Source: Candidatus Coproplasma excrementipullorum (GTDB lineage: Bacteria; Bacillota; Clostridia; Christensenellales; Borkfalkiaceae). From it: a stretch of DNA of 38,866 nucleotides. Of this stretch, positions 422 through 35,097 are shown one piece after another. The notes beneath the pieces were generated by a model. The model had not been told where the DNA came from. It ran no database searches and was given only the letters and a program-made list of their open reading frames with translations. The stretch lies in NCBI GenBank assembly GCA_018714165.1, contig DVNU01000049.1, forward strand, positions 1 through 38,866. The letters run 5' to 3'. Each line of letters starts with the position of its first letter. Position 1 is the first letter of the stretch. Made by a program: the position numbers and the translations under genes.

Positions 422-1198
422 ATGCAAACCACCAAAACAGCGGGGGGGGCAAAGTTTTTCAGCTCTACCCGCATCGCGGTAATAGCCGTGCTCTCTGCCA
501 TCGCCGCCGTACTTTACATCTTAAAGTTCCCCATCTCGGTAATCTTCCCGTCGTGGCTCGAACTCAATTTTTCAGACATTCCCGCCCTTATCGGCACCTT
601 TGCCCTCGGCCCCCTTTCCGGAGCTATAATTGTCGCCGTTAAAATCCTTTTGGAACTGCTCTTTACAGGTACTACTACAATGTTCGTCGGCGACTTTGCC
701 GATCTGATACTGGGTTGTGCCTTCGTTGTCCCCGCAGGCCTCATCTACAAGCATAACCGCACATTAAAAGGTGCGCTCCTGGGCTTAATCGTCGGTGCGG
801 TTTGCTCTACGGCGCTTGGCATTCTTGCAAACTGGCTTGTCCTTGTTCCCTTCTATATCCAGTTCTTTTTCGGCGGCAGCTGGGAGCCTCTGCTCGGCAC
901 GATGAGCGCCATCTTCGGCGAAGTCACGCACGAAACATTCTATACATACTACCTCTGGTGCTCGGTGTTGCCCTTCAACGCAATGCGTTGCATCATTGCA
1001 ATAATCGTCGTGCTTCCCATCTATAAGCACATTTCACGCATAATAAACAGGCTAAATGTCCGTCTCGCCCCCAAGGAGAAAACGGAGGAACAGACGCACA
1101 GACAGATGGTGCGTATGTTGGCGATAATCATCGGACTTCTGGTTATAATTACAATTATTATAGTTCTGAGATTCCTCATTGAAGAGGGAATTTTATAA
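422..1198 (+). CDS. ribU: Riboflavin ECF transporter S component RibU
   Basis: Membrane substrate-binding (S) subunit of an energy-coupling factor transporter that imports riboflavin. The 258-residue product is strongly hydrophobic, with about six membrane segments starting near residue 18, a short basic loop near 205-230 (IYKHISRIINRL, then KEKTEEQ) and a last helix near 235-255. This C-terminal extension is longer than in a minimal S component. The start ATG has AAGGAG at 408-413. Control by an FMN riboswitch strongly supports the RibU assignment over other S components. The shared EcfA/EcfT subunits are not in the window. It is monocistronic: a terminator follows at once. Confidence 0.93.
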   Translation: MQTTKTAGGAKFFSSTRIAVIAVLSAIAAVLYILKFPISVIFPSWLELNFSDIPALIGTFALGPLSGAIIVAVKILLELLFTGTTTMFVGDFADLILGCAFVVPAGLIYKHNRTLKGALLGLIVGAVCSTALGILANWLVLVPFYIQFFFGGSWEPLLGTMSAIFGEVTHETFYTYYLWCSVLPFNAMRCIIAIIVVLPIYKHISRIINRLNVRLAPKEKTEEQTHRQMVRMLAIIIGLLVIITIIIVLRFLIEEGIL

Positions 1199-1204
1199 AA
1201 GAAA

Positions 1205-1240
1205 AATGCGCGCGGCCTAAAAGACTGCGCGCATTCCTTT
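1205..1240 (+). terminator. Terminator after ribU
   Basis: AATGCGCGC and GCGCGCATT form a 9-bp stem followed by CCTTTG. The T-run is short, but the hairpin begins seven bases after the ribU stop codon. Confidence 0.7.
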
Positions 1241-1292
1241 GTCCCGCGCACCCAACAATTTTGCTTAATTTTATAAAATTACCACTAAATCA

Positions 1293-24527: not shown

Positions 24528-24815
24528 ATGTCACAACTTGTATGCGACCGCCCGCGCTTCGTGCGCATATCGGGCGGCAATGCGCGCCTTGCCGAAAAGC
24601 TGTTCGGCTGTCCCATGCCCTTTGGCCTGGACGGTCAGATAAATGTGGTAACGCCCGCGCCCTGCCGGGTGTGCACGGCGGGGCCGTTTGACGACTTTGA
24701 AAGTATAGCCGCAAAGACAGGCAGGGAGGGGGCAAAGCTCGCCGCCTTCAACGGCGGCGTCGTATACCCCTGCCGCAGGATATACCTGTATGACGCGTCG
24801 GAGGCTTCGCAGTGA
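24528..24815 (+). CDS. Small hypothetical protein
   Basis: A 95-residue frame with codon use like the neighbouring genes. It begins MSQLVCDRPRFVRISGGNAR and contains CPMPFGLDGQINVVTPAPC, then CTAGPFDDFESI and a C-terminal NGGVVYPCRRIYLYDASEA. Five cysteines are present and there is no signal peptide or membrane helix. I recognise no family. It is transcribed divergently from the flippase gene; a TATGTT box 6 nt before the ATG hints at another leaderless start. Its end overlaps the first box of the hairpin array by 4 nt. Confidence 0.5.
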   Translation: MSQLVCDRPRFVRISGGNARLAEKLFGCPMPFGLDGQINVVTPAPCRVCTAGPFDDFESIAAKTGREGAKLAAFNGGVVYPCRRIYLYDASEASQ

Positions 24816-25071
24816 AATGCGCGGGCATTGCCCGCGCGTGAAATTCCGCTTGCGCGGAGTGAAATACCACCTCAACCTCTCATTTTAATTGGTCATATCA
24901 AAGGTGGTGTGAAATGCAACCTTTCAGGTTGCGTTGAGGTGAGTATCTTTGCGGCATAGCCGCATAATTTATACCATAACGCACAGCGCAGCTGTGTATT
25001 TCACAAACGCGAAGCGTTTATTTCACACGCAGAAGGCGTATTTCACGCAGAGCGCCGCTCTGCATTTTCAC
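24812..25071. repeat. Array of short hairpins separated by GTGAAAT/ATTTCAC boxes
   Basis: Four GTGAAAT boxes (24812, 24838, 24859, 24909) on the left are mirrored by ATTTCAC boxes (24998, 25020, 25040) and ATTTTCAC (25064) on the right. Between them sit hairpins of different sequence: GCGCGGGC-ATT-GCCCGCGC, TCCGC-TTG-CGCGGA, GCAACC-TTTCA-GGTTGC, GCGGC-ATA-GCCGC, CACAGC-GCA-GCTGTG, AAACGC-GAA-GCGTTT, ACGC-AGAAG-GCGT and GCAGAGC-GCC-GCTCTGC. The middle has CACCTCAAC/GTTGAGGTG and CCACCT/AGGTGG as alternative stems. There is no reading frame of note. It looks like a nested palindromic, possibly mobile, element. Confidence 0.75.
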
Positions 25072-31574: not shown

Positions 31575-32486
31575 ATGGCAAATTTAAAGGTCAATATCTG
31601 CGGGGTGGAGTTCAAAAACCCCGTAATCGCCGCAAGCGGCACATACGGTTTCGGCAGGGAATTTGAAGAGATTTACGACATCTCGTGCATAGGCGGCGTG
31701 TCCACCAAGGGCACCACGCTTGAGCCACGCCTCGGCAACCCCGTACCCCGAATTGCAGAGGGCAGTTCGGTAATTTTAAACGCCGTCGGCCTTCAGAATC
31801 CGGGCGTTGAGCATTTCATTAAGGACGATCTGCCCTTTTTAAAGGATAAGGGCGTCGTCATCATCGCCAACGTTGCGGGCAACACGCTTGAAGATTATCA
31901 GCTCATCTGCCGCCGCTTAAACGGCCTGGTGGACATGGTGGAGCTCAACATCTCCTGTCCCAACGTTCACGCGGGCGGAATGGCACTCGGCATCAAACCG
32001 CAAAATATCAGGGAAGTAACTTCCCTCACCAAGGCTGAGCTTACAAAAACGCCTTTAATCGTCAAGCTCTCGCCAAATGTGGAGAGCATTCCCGTCAATG
32101 CGCGGGCGGCGGAGGAGGGCGGTGCCGACTGCATTTCACTCGTCAATACCTTCACCGGAATGGTCATCGACCTGGAGCGGCGCAAACCCATTATCGCCAA
32201 CAACACGGGCGGCGTTTCGGGCGCGGGCATAAAGCCCATTGCGCTTCGTATGGTCTACGAGGCGGCTCACGCCGTAAGCATTCCTGTAATCGGCATGGGC
32301 GGCATAGCCACCGGGTGCGACGCTTTGGAATTTATGTGTGCGGGCGCAAAGGCGGTGCAGGTAGGCACGGCAAATTTCACCGATTCCTTAGCTATGCCTC
32401 GCATAATTAAAGAAATGAACGACTGGCTCGACAGTCACAACATTTCCGACATAAACGACATCGTCGACACATTAAAGTTAAATTAA
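31575..32486 (+). CDS. pyrD: Dihydroorotate dehydrogenase B, catalytic subunit
   Basis: FMN enzyme that oxidises dihydroorotate to orotate and works with PyrK. NPVIAASGTYGFG at the N-terminus, VELNISCPNVHAGG (the region of the class 1 catalytic Cys), VKLSPNV, NNTGGVSGAGIKPIALRMV and GMGGIATGCDALEF follow in order. 303 residues. There is no Shine-Dalgarno sequence in the AATTAAATAAA before the ATG, unlike other genes of this operon. This may reflect the AT-rich insertion just upstream. Confidence 0.96.
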   Translation: MANLKVNICGVEFKNPVIAASGTYGFGREFEEIYDISCIGGVSTKGTTLEPRLGNPVPRIAEGSSVILNAVGLQNPGVEHFIKDDLPFLKDKGVVIIANVAGNTLEDYQLICRRLNGLVDMVELNISCPNVHAGGMALGIKPQNIREVTSLTKAELTKTPLIVKLSPNVESIPVNARAAEEGGADCISLVNTFTGMVIDLERRKPIIANNTGGVSGAGIKPIALRMVYEAAHAVSIPVIGMGGIATGCDALEFMCAGAKAVQVGTANFTDSLAMPRIIKEMNDWLDSHNISDINDIVDTLKLN

Positions 32487-32496
32487 TAGTTTTCTC

Positions 32497-32509
32497 GCGG
32501 CATAGCCGC
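32497..32509 (+). repeat. GCGGC-ATA-GCCGC hairpin shared with the 24.8-kb array
   Basis: The hairpin and its flank (GCGGCATAGCCGCA, then CAACTTAC) match 24951-24972 (GCGGCATAGCCGCA, then TAATTTAT) with C-to-T type differences only. It stands just before the 175-nt structured element. Confidence 0.6.
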
Positions 32510-32520
32510 ACAACTTACGT

Positions 32521-32695
32521 TTTCACCCGAAATCGCACTTTCGGGTGAAAGGCCACAATTTGCGAATCCTTTCGCCTCAGCGGGGTGAATGGGCGCAATT
32601 ATATAAAAGAGGGCAAAAAAATATTGCGCCCGGAGGGGCAGCGCCCCTAAAAAATAACGGCAAGTCGCAGGCGTCGCCAGCTAAGACTTGCGTTA
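32521..32695 (+). ncRNA. Novel 175-nt structured element, copy A
   Basis: Five hairpins in series. H1: TTTCACCCGAAA/TTTCGGGTGAAA, 6-nt loop. H2: GCGAA/TTCGC, 4-nt loop (32562-32575). Then the joint CTCAGCGGGGTGAAT (32576-32590). H3: GGGCGCAAT/ATTGCGCCC with a 23-nt loop starting TATATAA (32591-32631). H4: AGGGG/CCCCT (32634-32648). H5: TAACG-g-CAAGTC/GACTTG-CGTTA (32655-32695). A second copy at 34312-34486 keeps every helix with changed base pairs. The last stem abuts the pyrE Shine-Dalgarno sequence AGGAGG (32696-32701), so it could influence pyrE translation. Class unknown to me. Confidence 0.7.
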
Positions 32696-32705
32696 AGGAG
32701 GAATT

Positions 32706-33362
32706 ATGACATATAAGCAACAATTCATCAAATTCATGGTAGAAAGCGGCGTTCTTAAGTTCGGCCGGTTCACGCTTAAAAGCGGCCGCCTTGCGCCCTA
32801 CTTCATCAACACGGGTAACTACAAGACGGGTCAGCAACTTGCCCGCCTCGGCGAGTATTACGCCGCCTGCATAGCCGAAAACAAGGTGGAAGCGGACACT
32901 TTAGTCGGCCCCGCATACAAGGGTATTCCCCTTGCGGTCACAACTGCCGTGTCCCTCTGGAACAACCACAAAATTAATGTCAACTACTGCTTCGACAGAA
33001 AAGAGGTAAAGGACCACGGCGAAGGCGGTCTGTTCGTCGGCCGCCAGCTTGAGGACGGCGAAAAAGTGCTCATTGTAGAGGATGTAATGACGTCCGGTAA
33101 GGCTCTCCGCGAAATCCTTCCCAAGCTCGAACAGCAGGCAAATGTGCAGGTTGCCGGCATGGTCATCTCCGTTGACCGTATGGAAAAGGGCCTCAATTCC
33201 GACCTCTCCGCCGTGCAGGAAGTCTTGCGCGATTTCGGCATAAAGGTCTATTCCATAGTCACAATGCAGGATATAATCGATGCAATCGAACAGGGAATTA
33301 TCGAAGGTAAGGAATACCTTACCGCAATGAAGGAGTACCGCGCCCAGTACGGCGTAAACTGA
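32706..33362 (+). CDS. pyrE: Orotate phosphoribosyltransferase
   Basis: Joins orotate to PRPP to give OMP. It has LKSGRLAPYFINTGNYKTG near the N-terminus, the KGIPLAVTTAVSL segment, the flexible-loop FDRKEVKDHGEGG and the PRPP-binding VLIVEDVMTSGKAL (about 119-132). The 218-residue length fits the family. AGGAGG lies 4 nt before the ATG and is preceded directly by the last helix of structured element A. It is the last gene of the pyr operon, with a strong terminator after it. carAB and pyrR are not in the window. Confidence 0.96.
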   Translation: MTYKQQFIKFMVESGVLKFGRFTLKSGRLAPYFINTGNYKTGQQLARLGEYYAACIAENKVEADTLVGPAYKGIPLAVTTAVSLWNNHKINVNYCFDRKEVKDHGEGGLFVGRQLEDGEKVLIVEDVMTSGKALREILPKLEQQANVQVAGMVISVDRMEKGLNSDLSAVQEVLRDFGIKVYSIVTMQDIIDAIEQGIIEGKEYLTAMKEYRAQYGVN

Positions 33363-33376
33363 AATTGACAAAATTC

Positions 33377-33418
33377 AAAGCGGCCGACGGCGAAAAATTT
33401 CGCCGTCGGCCGCTTTTT
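33377..33418 (+). terminator. Terminator of the pyr operon
   Basis: AAAGCGGCCGACGGCGAAA and TTTCGCCGTCGGCCGCTTT form a 19-bp perfect stem with an AA loop, ending in TTTTTGT. The flanks would also let it stop transcription arriving on the minus strand from the deacetylase gene. Confidence 0.92.
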
Positions 33419-33499
33419 GTATAAAGGACCTCCAGAGCCTCCCAATGTTGCAGTCAAAGTATCCGGCCGACTTTTCAGACGACAATTGTGTCCATATAT

Positions 33500-34192
33500 T
33501 TAAAATGTACAAAACACATACCCCGCGCCCCTGTAGTAGGCAATGATGTCCTTGAGAGCGGCTGCGGTGGAGGTCTTGTTTGTGCTGTCGTGGCAGAGCA
33601 GAACAACGTGGTTTCTGTCTGCAGAGGTGCTCTTTGCGGCATTCAGCAAATCCGCCGCCGTTGCGTTTACCATCTCCGCATCGCGGACCGAGGCGTTCCA
33701 GTCCACATATCTGTAGCCCGCGCCCGTCACCGCGCCCACAAGCTCGCCGCTCAGGTTAAAACTGCCGCCGGGAAATCTGTAAACAGCGCTCTTTACTCCC
33801 GTGATATCCTCAATCAGTGCGTTGCACCTTTCTATGTCGCTTAAAAGAGCGGCGGGGGAGGCGTAAATTTTTTTGTAATCGTGCGTGTAACTGTGCACGC
33901 CTATGGTGTGCCCCTCGTCAAAGGCGCGCTTTACAATGGGGCGGCGGGTCTCCGCGCTCTTGCCCACAATAAAAAATGTCGCCTTAATGCCCTCGTCTTT
34001 CAACGTGTCCAGAATTTTCGGCGTAACCCTGTCGCTCGGCCCGTCGTCAAAGGTCAGGTATACACAGCTCTGCTGACTGTCCGCATAGCTTATTTTCATC
34101 TGTGTCGACTGGGCCAGCAAACCAAAGTAATGCATAAGTATGGCCGAAAAAATAATCATAAACGCGGTAAACGCGCCTATCTTTCTGTTCAT
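33500..34192 (-). CDS. Polysaccharide deacetylase (NodB domain), membrane anchored
   Basis: Carbohydrate esterase family 4 protein; relatives deacetylate peptidoglycan, chitin-like or other N-acetylated glycans outside the cell. One N-terminal hydrophobic segment (about 5-27) acts as anchor or signal. The NodB motifs are complete: TFDDGPS, HSYTHDY with both metal histidines, RFPGGS, VDWN and LLCHD. At 230 residues it is a minimal enzyme. I take the ATG at 34192 because it lies just before the membrane segment; longer open sequence upstream adds no sensible N-terminus. A weak TTGTAT/CAAAAT pair with a 6-nt gap hints at another leaderless start. Confidence 0.9.
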   Translation of the reverse strand: MNRKIGAFTAFMIIFSAILMHYFGLLAQSTQMKISYADSQQSCVYLTFDDGPSDRVTPKILDTLKDEGIKATFFIVGKSAETRRPIVKRAFDEGHTIGVHSYTHDYKKIYASPAALLSDIERCNALIEDITGVKSAVYRFPGGSFNLSGELVGAVTGAGYRYVDWNASVRDAEMVNATAADLLNAAKSTSADRNHVVLLCHDSTNKTSTAAALKDIIAYYRGAGYVFCTF

Positions 34193-34274
34193 ACCTATAT
34201 TTTGCGCACATTTCCAAAAAATACAAGTGCGGGGCGGCAAATTCTTGCCGCGCCGCTCATAACTTATATTTAAT

Positions 34275-34292
34275 CAGCCAAGACTTGCGTAA
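34275..34292 (+). repeat. Fragment of a third structured-element copy
   Basis: CAGCCAAGACTTGCGTAA matches the 3' arm of helix 5 of copy A (CAGCTAAGACTTGCGTTAA) with one substitution and one missing T. It sits 20 nt upstream of copy B. It resembles copy A more than copy B, so it looks like the tail of a further copy. Confidence 0.45.
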
Positions 34293-34311
34293 ATTTAAAA
34301 ATAAATAAACG

Positions 34312-34486
34312 GCGCTGCGTGAAGGCGCGACTTCACGCAGCGCAACTCAATTTGTCGATACCTCGACCTCAGCGGGGTGAATTGCCGCGATTATATAATC
34401 GTGAGCTAAACCAAATCGCGGCAAGCGGGGCAGGCCCCGTAGATAACGGAAAGTGGATGCCCTCGGCCAGGGCACCACTTTCGTTA
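34312..34486 (+). ncRNA. Novel 175-nt structured element, copy B
   Basis: Same architecture as copy A, in the same orientation. H1: GCGCTGCGTGAAG/CTTCACGCAGCGC, 6-nt loop. H2: GTCGA/TCGAC (34354-34367). The identical joint CTCAGCGGGGTGAAT (34368-34382). H3: TGCCGCGAT/ATCGCGGCA with a 23-nt loop starting TATATAA (34383-34423). H4: CGGGG/CCCCG (34426-34439). H5: TAACG-g-AAAGTGG/CCACTTT-CGTTA with an inner TGCCCT/AGGGCA stem (34444-34486). It ends 3 bp before the stop codon of the opposite-strand XRE gene and precedes no plus-strand gene, which argues against a simple cis-regulator. Confidence 0.7.
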
Positions 34487-34488
34487 AT

Positions 34489-35097
34489 CTACTTCCTCCA
34501 AAAGCTCTTGCACCAGCTCTTTTTTCCGCAGTGCGGGCATTTAAGCCGCCTCTTTGTCATAGTATGCATTCCCCAAACATAGGCCGATGGCGTGGCGGCA
34601 AACTTAGTCCCGCATTCGGGACACTCAAAAATTTCACTGCTTATACCAACAATTAGTATTACCATCACGTTTGCTATCATCGAAAGCAGGGCGCATACTA
34701 TAAGCGTTATCCTCAGCCAGTTGTCAATGGCTGCATAGCCTGCGCACACTACTGCGAGTCCCAGGCAGGAAATTATGGTGAGTATAAAGGAAACAAAACA
34801 AGTTATGCTCTTTGCTTTGGGGCTGCACTTGTCGGCGGTCAGCGCGGCAAAATTTTCCTCGGCCTTCTCTATGTATTGCTTTTCGTCCAGTTTCTGCCCC
34901 GAAAGCAGTTCGTTTACCGTTATACCCAAAGCTTTACTTAAGGGGAGCATAATTCCCACGTCAGGCAGGCCGTTTCCCGTCTCCCATTTGGAGACAGTTT
35001 TTTCGGAGATGTTCAGCTCTTCCGCCAGCTCCCTTTGGGTGAGTCCCCGCTCCTTGCGCATAGCCTTAATAAATTGTCCCGTCAACGTTTGGTCCAT
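34489..35097 (-). CDS. XRE-family regulator with membrane helices and zinc ribbon
   Basis: A 202-residue protein in three parts. An N-terminal XRE helix-turn-helix (about 8-62) contains GLTQRELAEELNISEKTVSK, WETGNGLPDVGIMLPLSKAL and GITVNELLSG. Two membrane helices follow (about 97-123 and 128-152). The C-terminal zinc ribbon has two CxxC pairs (CPECG and CPHCG). The regulator may thus be tethered to the membrane. AGGAGGAGG precedes the ATG. It is divergent from an ABC exporter operon across 242 bp, the natural candidate target; the signal sensed is unknown. Confidence 0.88.
   Translation of the reverse strand: MDQTLTGQFIKAMRKERGLTQRELAEELNISEKTVSKWETGNGLPDVGIMLPLSKALGITVNELLSGQKLDEKQYIEKAEENFAALTADKCSPKAKSITCFVSFILTIISCLGLAVVCAGYAAIDNWLRITLIVCALLSMIANVMVILIVGISSEIFECPECGTKFAATPSAYVWGMHTMTKRRLKCPHCGKKSWCKSFWRK

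Follow-up and report, generated by a model that had tools for sequence, protein, structure and literature searches.

Structured interspersed repeats are known from several bacteria, and quite what spreads them and what their folds are for is often unknown. The same question is raised by a contig of Candidatus Coproplasma excrementipullorum (DVNU01000049.1, the window here being its whole 38,866 nucleotides (nt)), in which two elements, copy A and copy B, carry five hairpins (H1 to H5) in the same order with stems that differ in sequence and keep their pairing. An initial annotation, made from the letters alone, took each for a 175-nt unit, matched it to no known family, saw selection on a fold and held a trans-acting RNA, a mobile-element RNA or a processed hairpin element possible. 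It now seems, with a probability that we would put near 0.72, that the copies belong to a non-autonomous, modular mobile element of Candidatus Coproplasma which acts as a folded single strand. They form a repeat family, set head to tail in places and absent from orthologous sites in relatives, with a fold kept by compensatory change, a mirror covariation between the joint J2/3 and helix H4, and a recurrence in another family of the order.

A lineage-confined repeat under selection for its fold

With up to two mismatches allowed, the own genome has 24 matches to the 15-mer of the joint and none to the reversed pattern, and 21 of the 24 sites were judged by eye to be this element. The initial annotation had proposed that further copies be sought with a covariance model, and such a model (R1, from a MAFFT alignment of 15 standard copies, A and B both among them, with a hand-set structure) finds at least 65 matches at E≤1 in this 1.7-Mb genome, 42 of them at 80 bits or more, 150 of 563 candidates having been scored. 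Across the genus 34 of 37 genomes have matches at E≤0.01 and three have none; the matches number at least 575 over the 37 genomes, with at least 43 in each of five. A stricter pattern matched 14 contigs, all of which carry the element by R1.

Among 24 genomes of the order outside the genus only one (G041) matches R1, and a class-wide sample of 291 genomes, searched at E≤1e-4 under the tighter filtering applied to large sets, gave matches in the own genome, in G256 of the genus and in G298 of the same family. With laxer filters and E≤0.01, applied to four genomes, there were 13 matches in G298, 13 in G041, three in G256 and none in G277. A phage collection searched with copy A and a plasmid collection searched with copy B gave no match, and the element was in none of the stretches fetched from 15 viral contigs having the 15-mer. 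In the whole window and at 19 other loci no Rfam family reaches its gathering score on the element, in keeping with the earlier view that no known family fits; at E≤10 on 32400-34600 the only match inside the copies is suhB on the minus strand of copy A, taken as chance at 19.6 bits against a gathering score of 41. A literature search of titles and abstract starts gave no account of this repeat. With many intergenic copies, a lineage-confined distribution and absence at orthologous sites, the element has the marks of a lineage-specific interspersed structured repeat.

The stems, the loops and the identical joint of A and B are in place on re-reading, as are the five hairpins, and the unit is longer than the 175 nt first given: at about 190 nt it comprises some 10-15 nt of AT-rich leader before H1, then H1, CAATTT, a compact core (H2, J2/3, H3 and H4) and a bulged H5, with CGTTAA, CGTGAA or a similar sequence at its end. 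Each copy has a better fold than its dinucleotide shuffles (z −4.26 for A and −7.38 for B, with 0 of 200 shuffles as good in either case). Fifteen copies were aligned by MAFFT without structure and scored at 42 predicted pairs, of which 91.8% of cells are paired against 75.0% shuffled and 39-47% slid; two-sided changes occur at 29 of the 42 pairs, and the weaker signal is in further pair types (46 against 40.1, a count that 10 of 500 shuffles attain). In 113 copies (107 distinct), fitted to the model and so leaning towards it, 94.6% of cells are paired against 69.9% shuffled and 40-50% slid, two-sided changes reach 40 of the 42 pairs, and the covariation score is 0.571 against 0.05-0.10 slid. 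The bulged base of H5 is retained while the pairs around it change, and the terminal pairs of H5 differ among copies (TAACG/CGTTA, TCACG/CGTGA, TCGT/ACGA) with pairing kept. H1, which comes in at least three sequence types, has an internal loop in many copies. The first pair of H2 as annotated is doubtful: its C covaries with a G five positions on, around a CTCA loop (CG in 70 and GC in 16 of 89 rows). On the strand as read, G-T cells exceed A-C cells by 93 to 64 in the model alignment and by 21 to 13 in the MAFFT alignment, an excess that would point mildly to the + strand as the folding one. There is strong support for selection on a single-strand fold, as first proposed.

Mirror covariation of J2/3 with H4

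A mutual-information scan of all column pairs over 89 rows put the Watson-Crick pairs of the model at the top and with them non-complementary links at 73/125, 72/126 and 75/123. The linked columns lie in J2/3 and H4 and hold identical bases (G/G, A/A) or T against A or C, such that J2/3 mirrors the 5' arm of H4 read backwards, as in CGAGGTG with GAGGAGC, CGGTGTG with GAGCGGC and CGGAGGG with GGGAGGC. This code, which for the genus copies was written down after the data had been seen, is obeyed in 88.3% of cells against 71.6% with rows permuted (standard deviation (sd) 1.2; maximum of 2000, 75.3%); eight shifted registers give 28-48%. Among 44 nearest-neighbour contrasts that do not overlap, with identity of 0.51-1.0 outside the tested columns, columns 73 and 125 change jointly in 14 of the 18 contrasts showing any change (p 1.7e-7), followed by 72/126 (6 of 11, p 1.4e-4), 75/123 (8 of 19, p 0.004) and 71/127 (6 of 15, p 0.014); the smallest p over 318 background column pairs is 0.007.

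In a purine-motif triple the third strand lies antiparallel to the purine strand, and the code is G.GC, A.AT, T.AT and T.CG. Mirror covariation of this sort is what would be expected of a purine-motif third strand on H4, and J2/3 enters beside the H3/H4 junction, antiparallel to the purine-rich arm. From this covariation of sequences we infer that the arrangement may be a purine-motif, reverse-Hoogsteen triple. Two combinations stand outside the triple code: C facing C at 70/128, in 69 of 89 rows, and A facing C at 73/125, in five rows.

The diverged element of G041, a member of another family of the order, has at least 12 copies (loci L269-L291) with leader, H1, H2, joint, H3 and H4 in the same order, in sequences that differ from those of Coproplasma, and a joint and H4 that are longer and again mirror images of each other. 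Pairing holds here also (12 of 13 loci; 93.6% of the cells of 35 pairs, against 88.7% shuffled and 37-63% slid), with two-sided changes at 8 of the 35 pairs, reached by 1 of 500 shuffles, and further pair types not raised. When the code was fixed beforehand and applied to the joints and H4 arms of 12 copies, read from the end that they share, it held in 95 of 105 cells against 84.6% permuted (sd 2.0), a value that 0.6% of 5000 permutations reach. One such pair is ATTGGGGTG against AAAGGGGAG, and the number of T in the joint equals that of A in the arm (one or two) in 11 of the 12 copies, the exception being L270. A fold with hundreds of natural variants, at least 575 matches over 37 genomes, allows covariation to show a non-Watson-Crick contact from sequence alone, and the triple, if true, would be an unusual case of a natural purine-motif triplex within a mobile element.

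Units are built as modules. In G298, another genus of the same family (L264, L266, L272-L290), H1, CAATTT and H5 are common to both elements and the interior is different. Some Coproplasma copies hold a long insert inside the H4 loop (L001, L005, L137), and in others a sibling element is nested in the H3 loop; this sibling has the same kind of leader, a bulged H5 of the same build with TCGCT/AGCGA ends, and a different first hairpin. Several of the G298 units are followed by short reiterated 3' ends (TTCGTGAA..). In G000 a lone H5 hairpin lies just upstream of a short open reading frame (L149, G000:C13:8155-8202).

Dispersal and what might drive it

At the junction of pyrD and pyrE, where the own genome has copy A, the element is not seen in the 21 relatives (of 29 loci) that give both flanks. 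R1 run over those 21 whole loci gave three partial matches of 11-17 bits (L097, L099 and L102), taken as chance in coding DNA some 75-90 nt downstream of the pyrE start. At the same junction G029 (L085) has a long inverted repeat of another sort (ATGTCATTTCGA..CGAAATGACAT). Joined flanks and 15 fetched stretches were used to check four more sites. Site a is empty in three relatives; site b is empty in four, with a fifth broken at another place by a different insertion; site c, which precedes a gene of the phosphoglucomutase/phosphomannomutase family (PF02878), has four empties and one copy (L257, 114.6 bits); and at site d one relative is empty and another has an H5-like hairpin.

G028, G036, G013 and others have units lined up head to tail with short AT-rich spacers between them, and the units of these arrays set the element ends at the AT-rich leader (about TTTYTAAAATAATTAACG) and at CGTTAA or CGTGAA. 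With full arrays counted in, a further H5 3' arm (at least 14 of 16 matching) immediately precedes 19 of 71 copies; the downstream flanks give 1 of 71, and two controls give 0 of 71. In L158 the last unit is followed by short reiterations of the element 3' end (TTTGCGTTAA), spaced by 4 nt. Isolated 3' ends were considered as footprints and rejected: an 11-nt pattern occurs 26 times in the own genome against nine reversed, with 12 of the 26 inside copies. Outside copies the enrichment is not clear; next to them it is, as the upstream arms show. Of the terminal inverted repeats and target duplication that mark a classical miniature inverted-repeat transposable element of a DDE transposon, what is seen is TTAACG/CGTTAA, 6 nt long and present in some copies; TTAA would fit both ends at the pyrD-pyrE junction and at site a, neither of which has a near-identical empty site. 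At site c (right end of L014; L254 and L256) an almost identical 17-nt sequence recurs in the left flank, at the element end and in the start region of two relatives, and the element appears to end in a copy of a ribosome-binding site and GTG start. The general guide-target rule which this prompted, with the H5 3' arm copied from or matched to its target, was rejected over 98 copies, its mean of 7.3 against 6.0 permuted (sd 0.16) coming from about 20 cases, mostly arrays or remnants.

The best fit among the readings first offered is a mobile element (or the RNA or single-strand DNA form of one), because the copies are dispersed, are absent from orthologous sites, form tandem arrays and include a nested sibling; a fixed trans-acting RNA does not explain at least 42 copies beside unrelated genes. 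In the mechanism we would propose, the + strand acts as the folded form, whether single-strand DNA or RNA, J2/3 would lie on H4 as a purine-motif third strand, and H1 and H5 would be the ends recognised by an enzyme supplied in trans, a placing suggested by the relatives, which have ends in common and differ in their interiors. The simplest account of the arrays and gene edges may be that a new unit tends to join the 3' end of an older one or to settle at the edge of a gene.

The gene edges also bear on a different account. In the 36 own-genome copies (of 46) with both neighbours called, by simple-script open reading frame calls in which some negative gaps are likely start-site errors, the median gap to the gene is 5 nt on the 3' side against 203 nt on the 5' side; a gene lies within 25 nt on the 3' side in 28 of the 36 and on the 5' side in four, and the smaller gap is 3' in 33. 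The preference holds whether the next gene begins or ends there, and by eye some H5 seem to supply a stop codon or to overlap a likely ribosome-binding site or GTG start. Such nearness, with H5 abutting or overlapping likely ribosome-binding sites, one inferred GTG start and some stop codons, and with a core fold conserved in another family too, could mean a domesticated cis-acting RNA, once spread and now kept since its transcribed fold affects translation, RNA decay or termination of the neighbour. That seems unlikely: the 36 copies take both orientations to the next gene (11 +/+, 11 +/−, 9 −/− and 5 −/+), copies sit beside unrelated genes and are missing in relatives, and weak or partial ones are common (23 of 65 matches below 80 bits).

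Were the spreading form an RNA, copied into DNA and inserted by a reverse transcriptase in trans in the manner of a short interspersed nuclear element, the tertiary-contact signature would be at home, and the isolated H5 or H5 3' arms resemble extreme 5' truncations. This is rather improbable, in that RVT_1 is found in only 3 of 13 genomes with at least 24 copies, one of them the own genome with a weak match, and the matches are mostly full length or H5 alone, with no ladder of 5' truncations between. The bulged base of H5, the AAC/GTT ends in part of the copies and the same-direction arrays recall instead the integron attC site, which has a conserved AAC..GTT core at its hairpin base, and so a site of some integron at which a tyrosine recombinase would act on the folded strand, with arrays growing at one end. 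We regard this as very improbable indeed, since GTTA is the end of only 50 of 100 copies, the others having GTGA, ACGA and so on, and since array units mostly lie within a few bases of each other without cassettes.

Several observations weigh against the mobile single-strand element itself. No enzyme was found, in a search that covered Y1_Tnp and RVT_1, with DDE transposases and integrase not searched for and some assemblies incomplete. Y1_Tnp (PF01797) occurs in 10 of 41 genus genomes and in one (G028) of the 13 with at least 24 copies, having no match in the own genome (81% complete) and 11 more of those 13; RVT_1 occurs in 15 of the 41, the three high-copy ones being G014, G024 and the own genome, there with one weak match (E 3.9e-7). 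Neither tracks copy number, and neither is put forward as the partner. Open reading frames beside a five-copy cluster (L160) look by eye like housekeeping genes, and no transposase was seen among them, no domain search having been made. The strand evidence is mild; site d has full copies in G001 and G027 too, which means that copies can be old; and most matched flanks in relatives are 15-30% diverged, for which reason exact ends were taken from arrays and not from near-identical empty sites. A clean target duplication is not established, and under the guide-target rule the own left flank beats the other-copy mean in only 52 of 98 copies. Of the mirror positions the outer ones (70/128, 74/124 and 76/122) show no significant contrast among the 44. 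The 34 genus genomes with copies and the three without make a set for finding the mobilising enzyme by gene presence.

A bolder version of the mobile-element reading, tentative at best, is a single-strand mobile system of a new kind. Its folded strand would have a natural antiparallel purine-motif triple as core, made by J2/3 on H4 with five to nine layers and conserved across two families, its end hairpins would be recognised by an enzyme other than a Y1 transposase or a reverse transcriptase, and its H5 terminal pairs would be re-set between lineages (TAACG, TCACG, TCGT, TCGCT), shifting where the next unit joins.

The window copies and known systems

Copy A sits between a dihydroorotate dehydrogenase gene and a phosphoribosyltransferase gene which we take to be pyrE-like. 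Its H5 is followed by A and GGAGG, a likely ribosome-binding site of the next gene, and small hairpins comparable to the one on its 5' side precede several copies having a GTTTT-type H1. The H5 of copy B ends 2 nt short of the stop codon of a convergent gene.

Table 1. Features of copies A and B, their neighbours in the window, and the sibling repeat.
Feature	Position	Strand	Detail
Copy A	32512..32697	+	model positions 1-186; 177.3 bits, E 1.0e-55 in own genome
Small hairpin GCGGC ATA GCCGC	32497..32510	+	immediately 5' of copy A; read directly
H1, copy A	32521..32551	+	
CAATTT, copy A	32556..32561	+	near-invariant H1-H2 linker
H2, copy A	32562..32575	+	
J2/3 CGGGGTG, copy A	32581..32587	+	proposed third strand; mirrors H4 5' arm, one T-vs-A place
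H3, copy A	32590..32632	+	23-nt loop
H4, copy A	32634..32647	+	
H5, copy A	32655..32695	+	TAACG, bulged G at 32660, CGTTA
Copy B	34303..34488	+	model positions 1-186; 186.7 bits, E 7.6e-59 in own genome
Stray H5 3' arm	34275..34293	+	CAGCCAAGACTTGCGTAAA; on the 5' side of copy B; probably left over from another copy
H1, copy B	34312..34343	+	
H2, copy B	34354..34367	+	
J2/3 CGGGGTG, copy B	34373..34379	+	proposed third strand; one T-vs-C place against H4
H3, copy B	34382..34424	+	
H4, copy B	34426..34439	+	
H5, copy B	34444..34486	+	bulged G at 34449
Dihydroorotate dehydrogenase (pyrD-like)	31575..32486	+	PF01180, E 1.2e-80
Phosphoribosyltransferase	32706..33362	+	PF00156, E 1.5e-14
Polysaccharide deacetylase	33500..34240	-	PF01522, E 9.4e-32
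Helix-turn-helix protein	34489..35097	-	PF01381, E 1.7e-15; convergent with copy B
Sibling repeat	G000 C28:7144, C30:51076, C33:19126, C50:532, C52:24146, C84:4952		near matches at L292-L301

Other structured RNAs are found in the window and near copies elsewhere. An FMN riboswitch lies at 128-266 of the window (+, 110 bits), and a SAM riboswitch in L022 (1241-1327, −) is about 65 nt downstream of an element copy on the same strand. Gut-1 RNA (RF01706) is at 24810-24920 (+) of the window, at 1197-1273 (+) of L020, 165 nt from an element copy, and at 114-195 (−) of L015, about 1.2 kilobases from one. Like the Coproplasma element it has several hairpins on one strand; its model is a different one, and no Rfam match covers the element.

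In IS200/IS605, PATEs and REP/RAYT, end hairpins with unpaired bases on one strand serve systems that have non-autonomous derivatives and insert without clear target duplication. The hairpins near the ends of the Coproplasma element, with their unpaired bases (the H5 bulge and the H1 internal loop), are like those of IS200/IS605 and REP/RAYT, and by analogy the element may work like a Y1 system without being one; unlike them it goes without Y1_Tnp in 12 of the 13 genomes with at least 24 copies.

In kind the element compares with structured interspersed repeats of single lineages. In passages of one account (PMC3049150) BOX, RUP and SPRITE of Streptococcus pneumoniae are small interspersed repeats, mostly under 200 bp and nearly lineage-confined, held by the authors to be parasitic; BOX is modular and predicted to fold, and BOX and RUP are reported with terminal inverted repeats and target duplications. 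The Coproplasma element is likewise a small, modular, lineage-confined folding repeat, whereas no clean target duplication was established for it and its inverted repeat is the 6-nt TTAACG/CGTTAA of part of the copies; the mirror covariation is a feature of its own, of which the abstract and section 5 of that account make no mention for BOX, RUP or SPRITE. The bcr1-bcr18 families of the Bacillus cereus group are intergenic, with bcr1-3 similar to miniature inverted-repeat transposable elements, bcr10 and bcr18 of conserved secondary structure, and 40-51% of copies part of an mRNA, as passages of a second paper have it (PMC3446304). As a structured intergenic repeat of one lineage the Coproplasma element resembles them, and it differs from what those passages describe in its five-helix fold with a bulged terminal hairpin, its tandem arrays and its lineage. 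Overall the element is a new family of a known kind, to which BOX and bcr1 also belong as structured repeats interspersed in one lineage, and its tertiary signature, recurring in a second bacterial family, is unusual.

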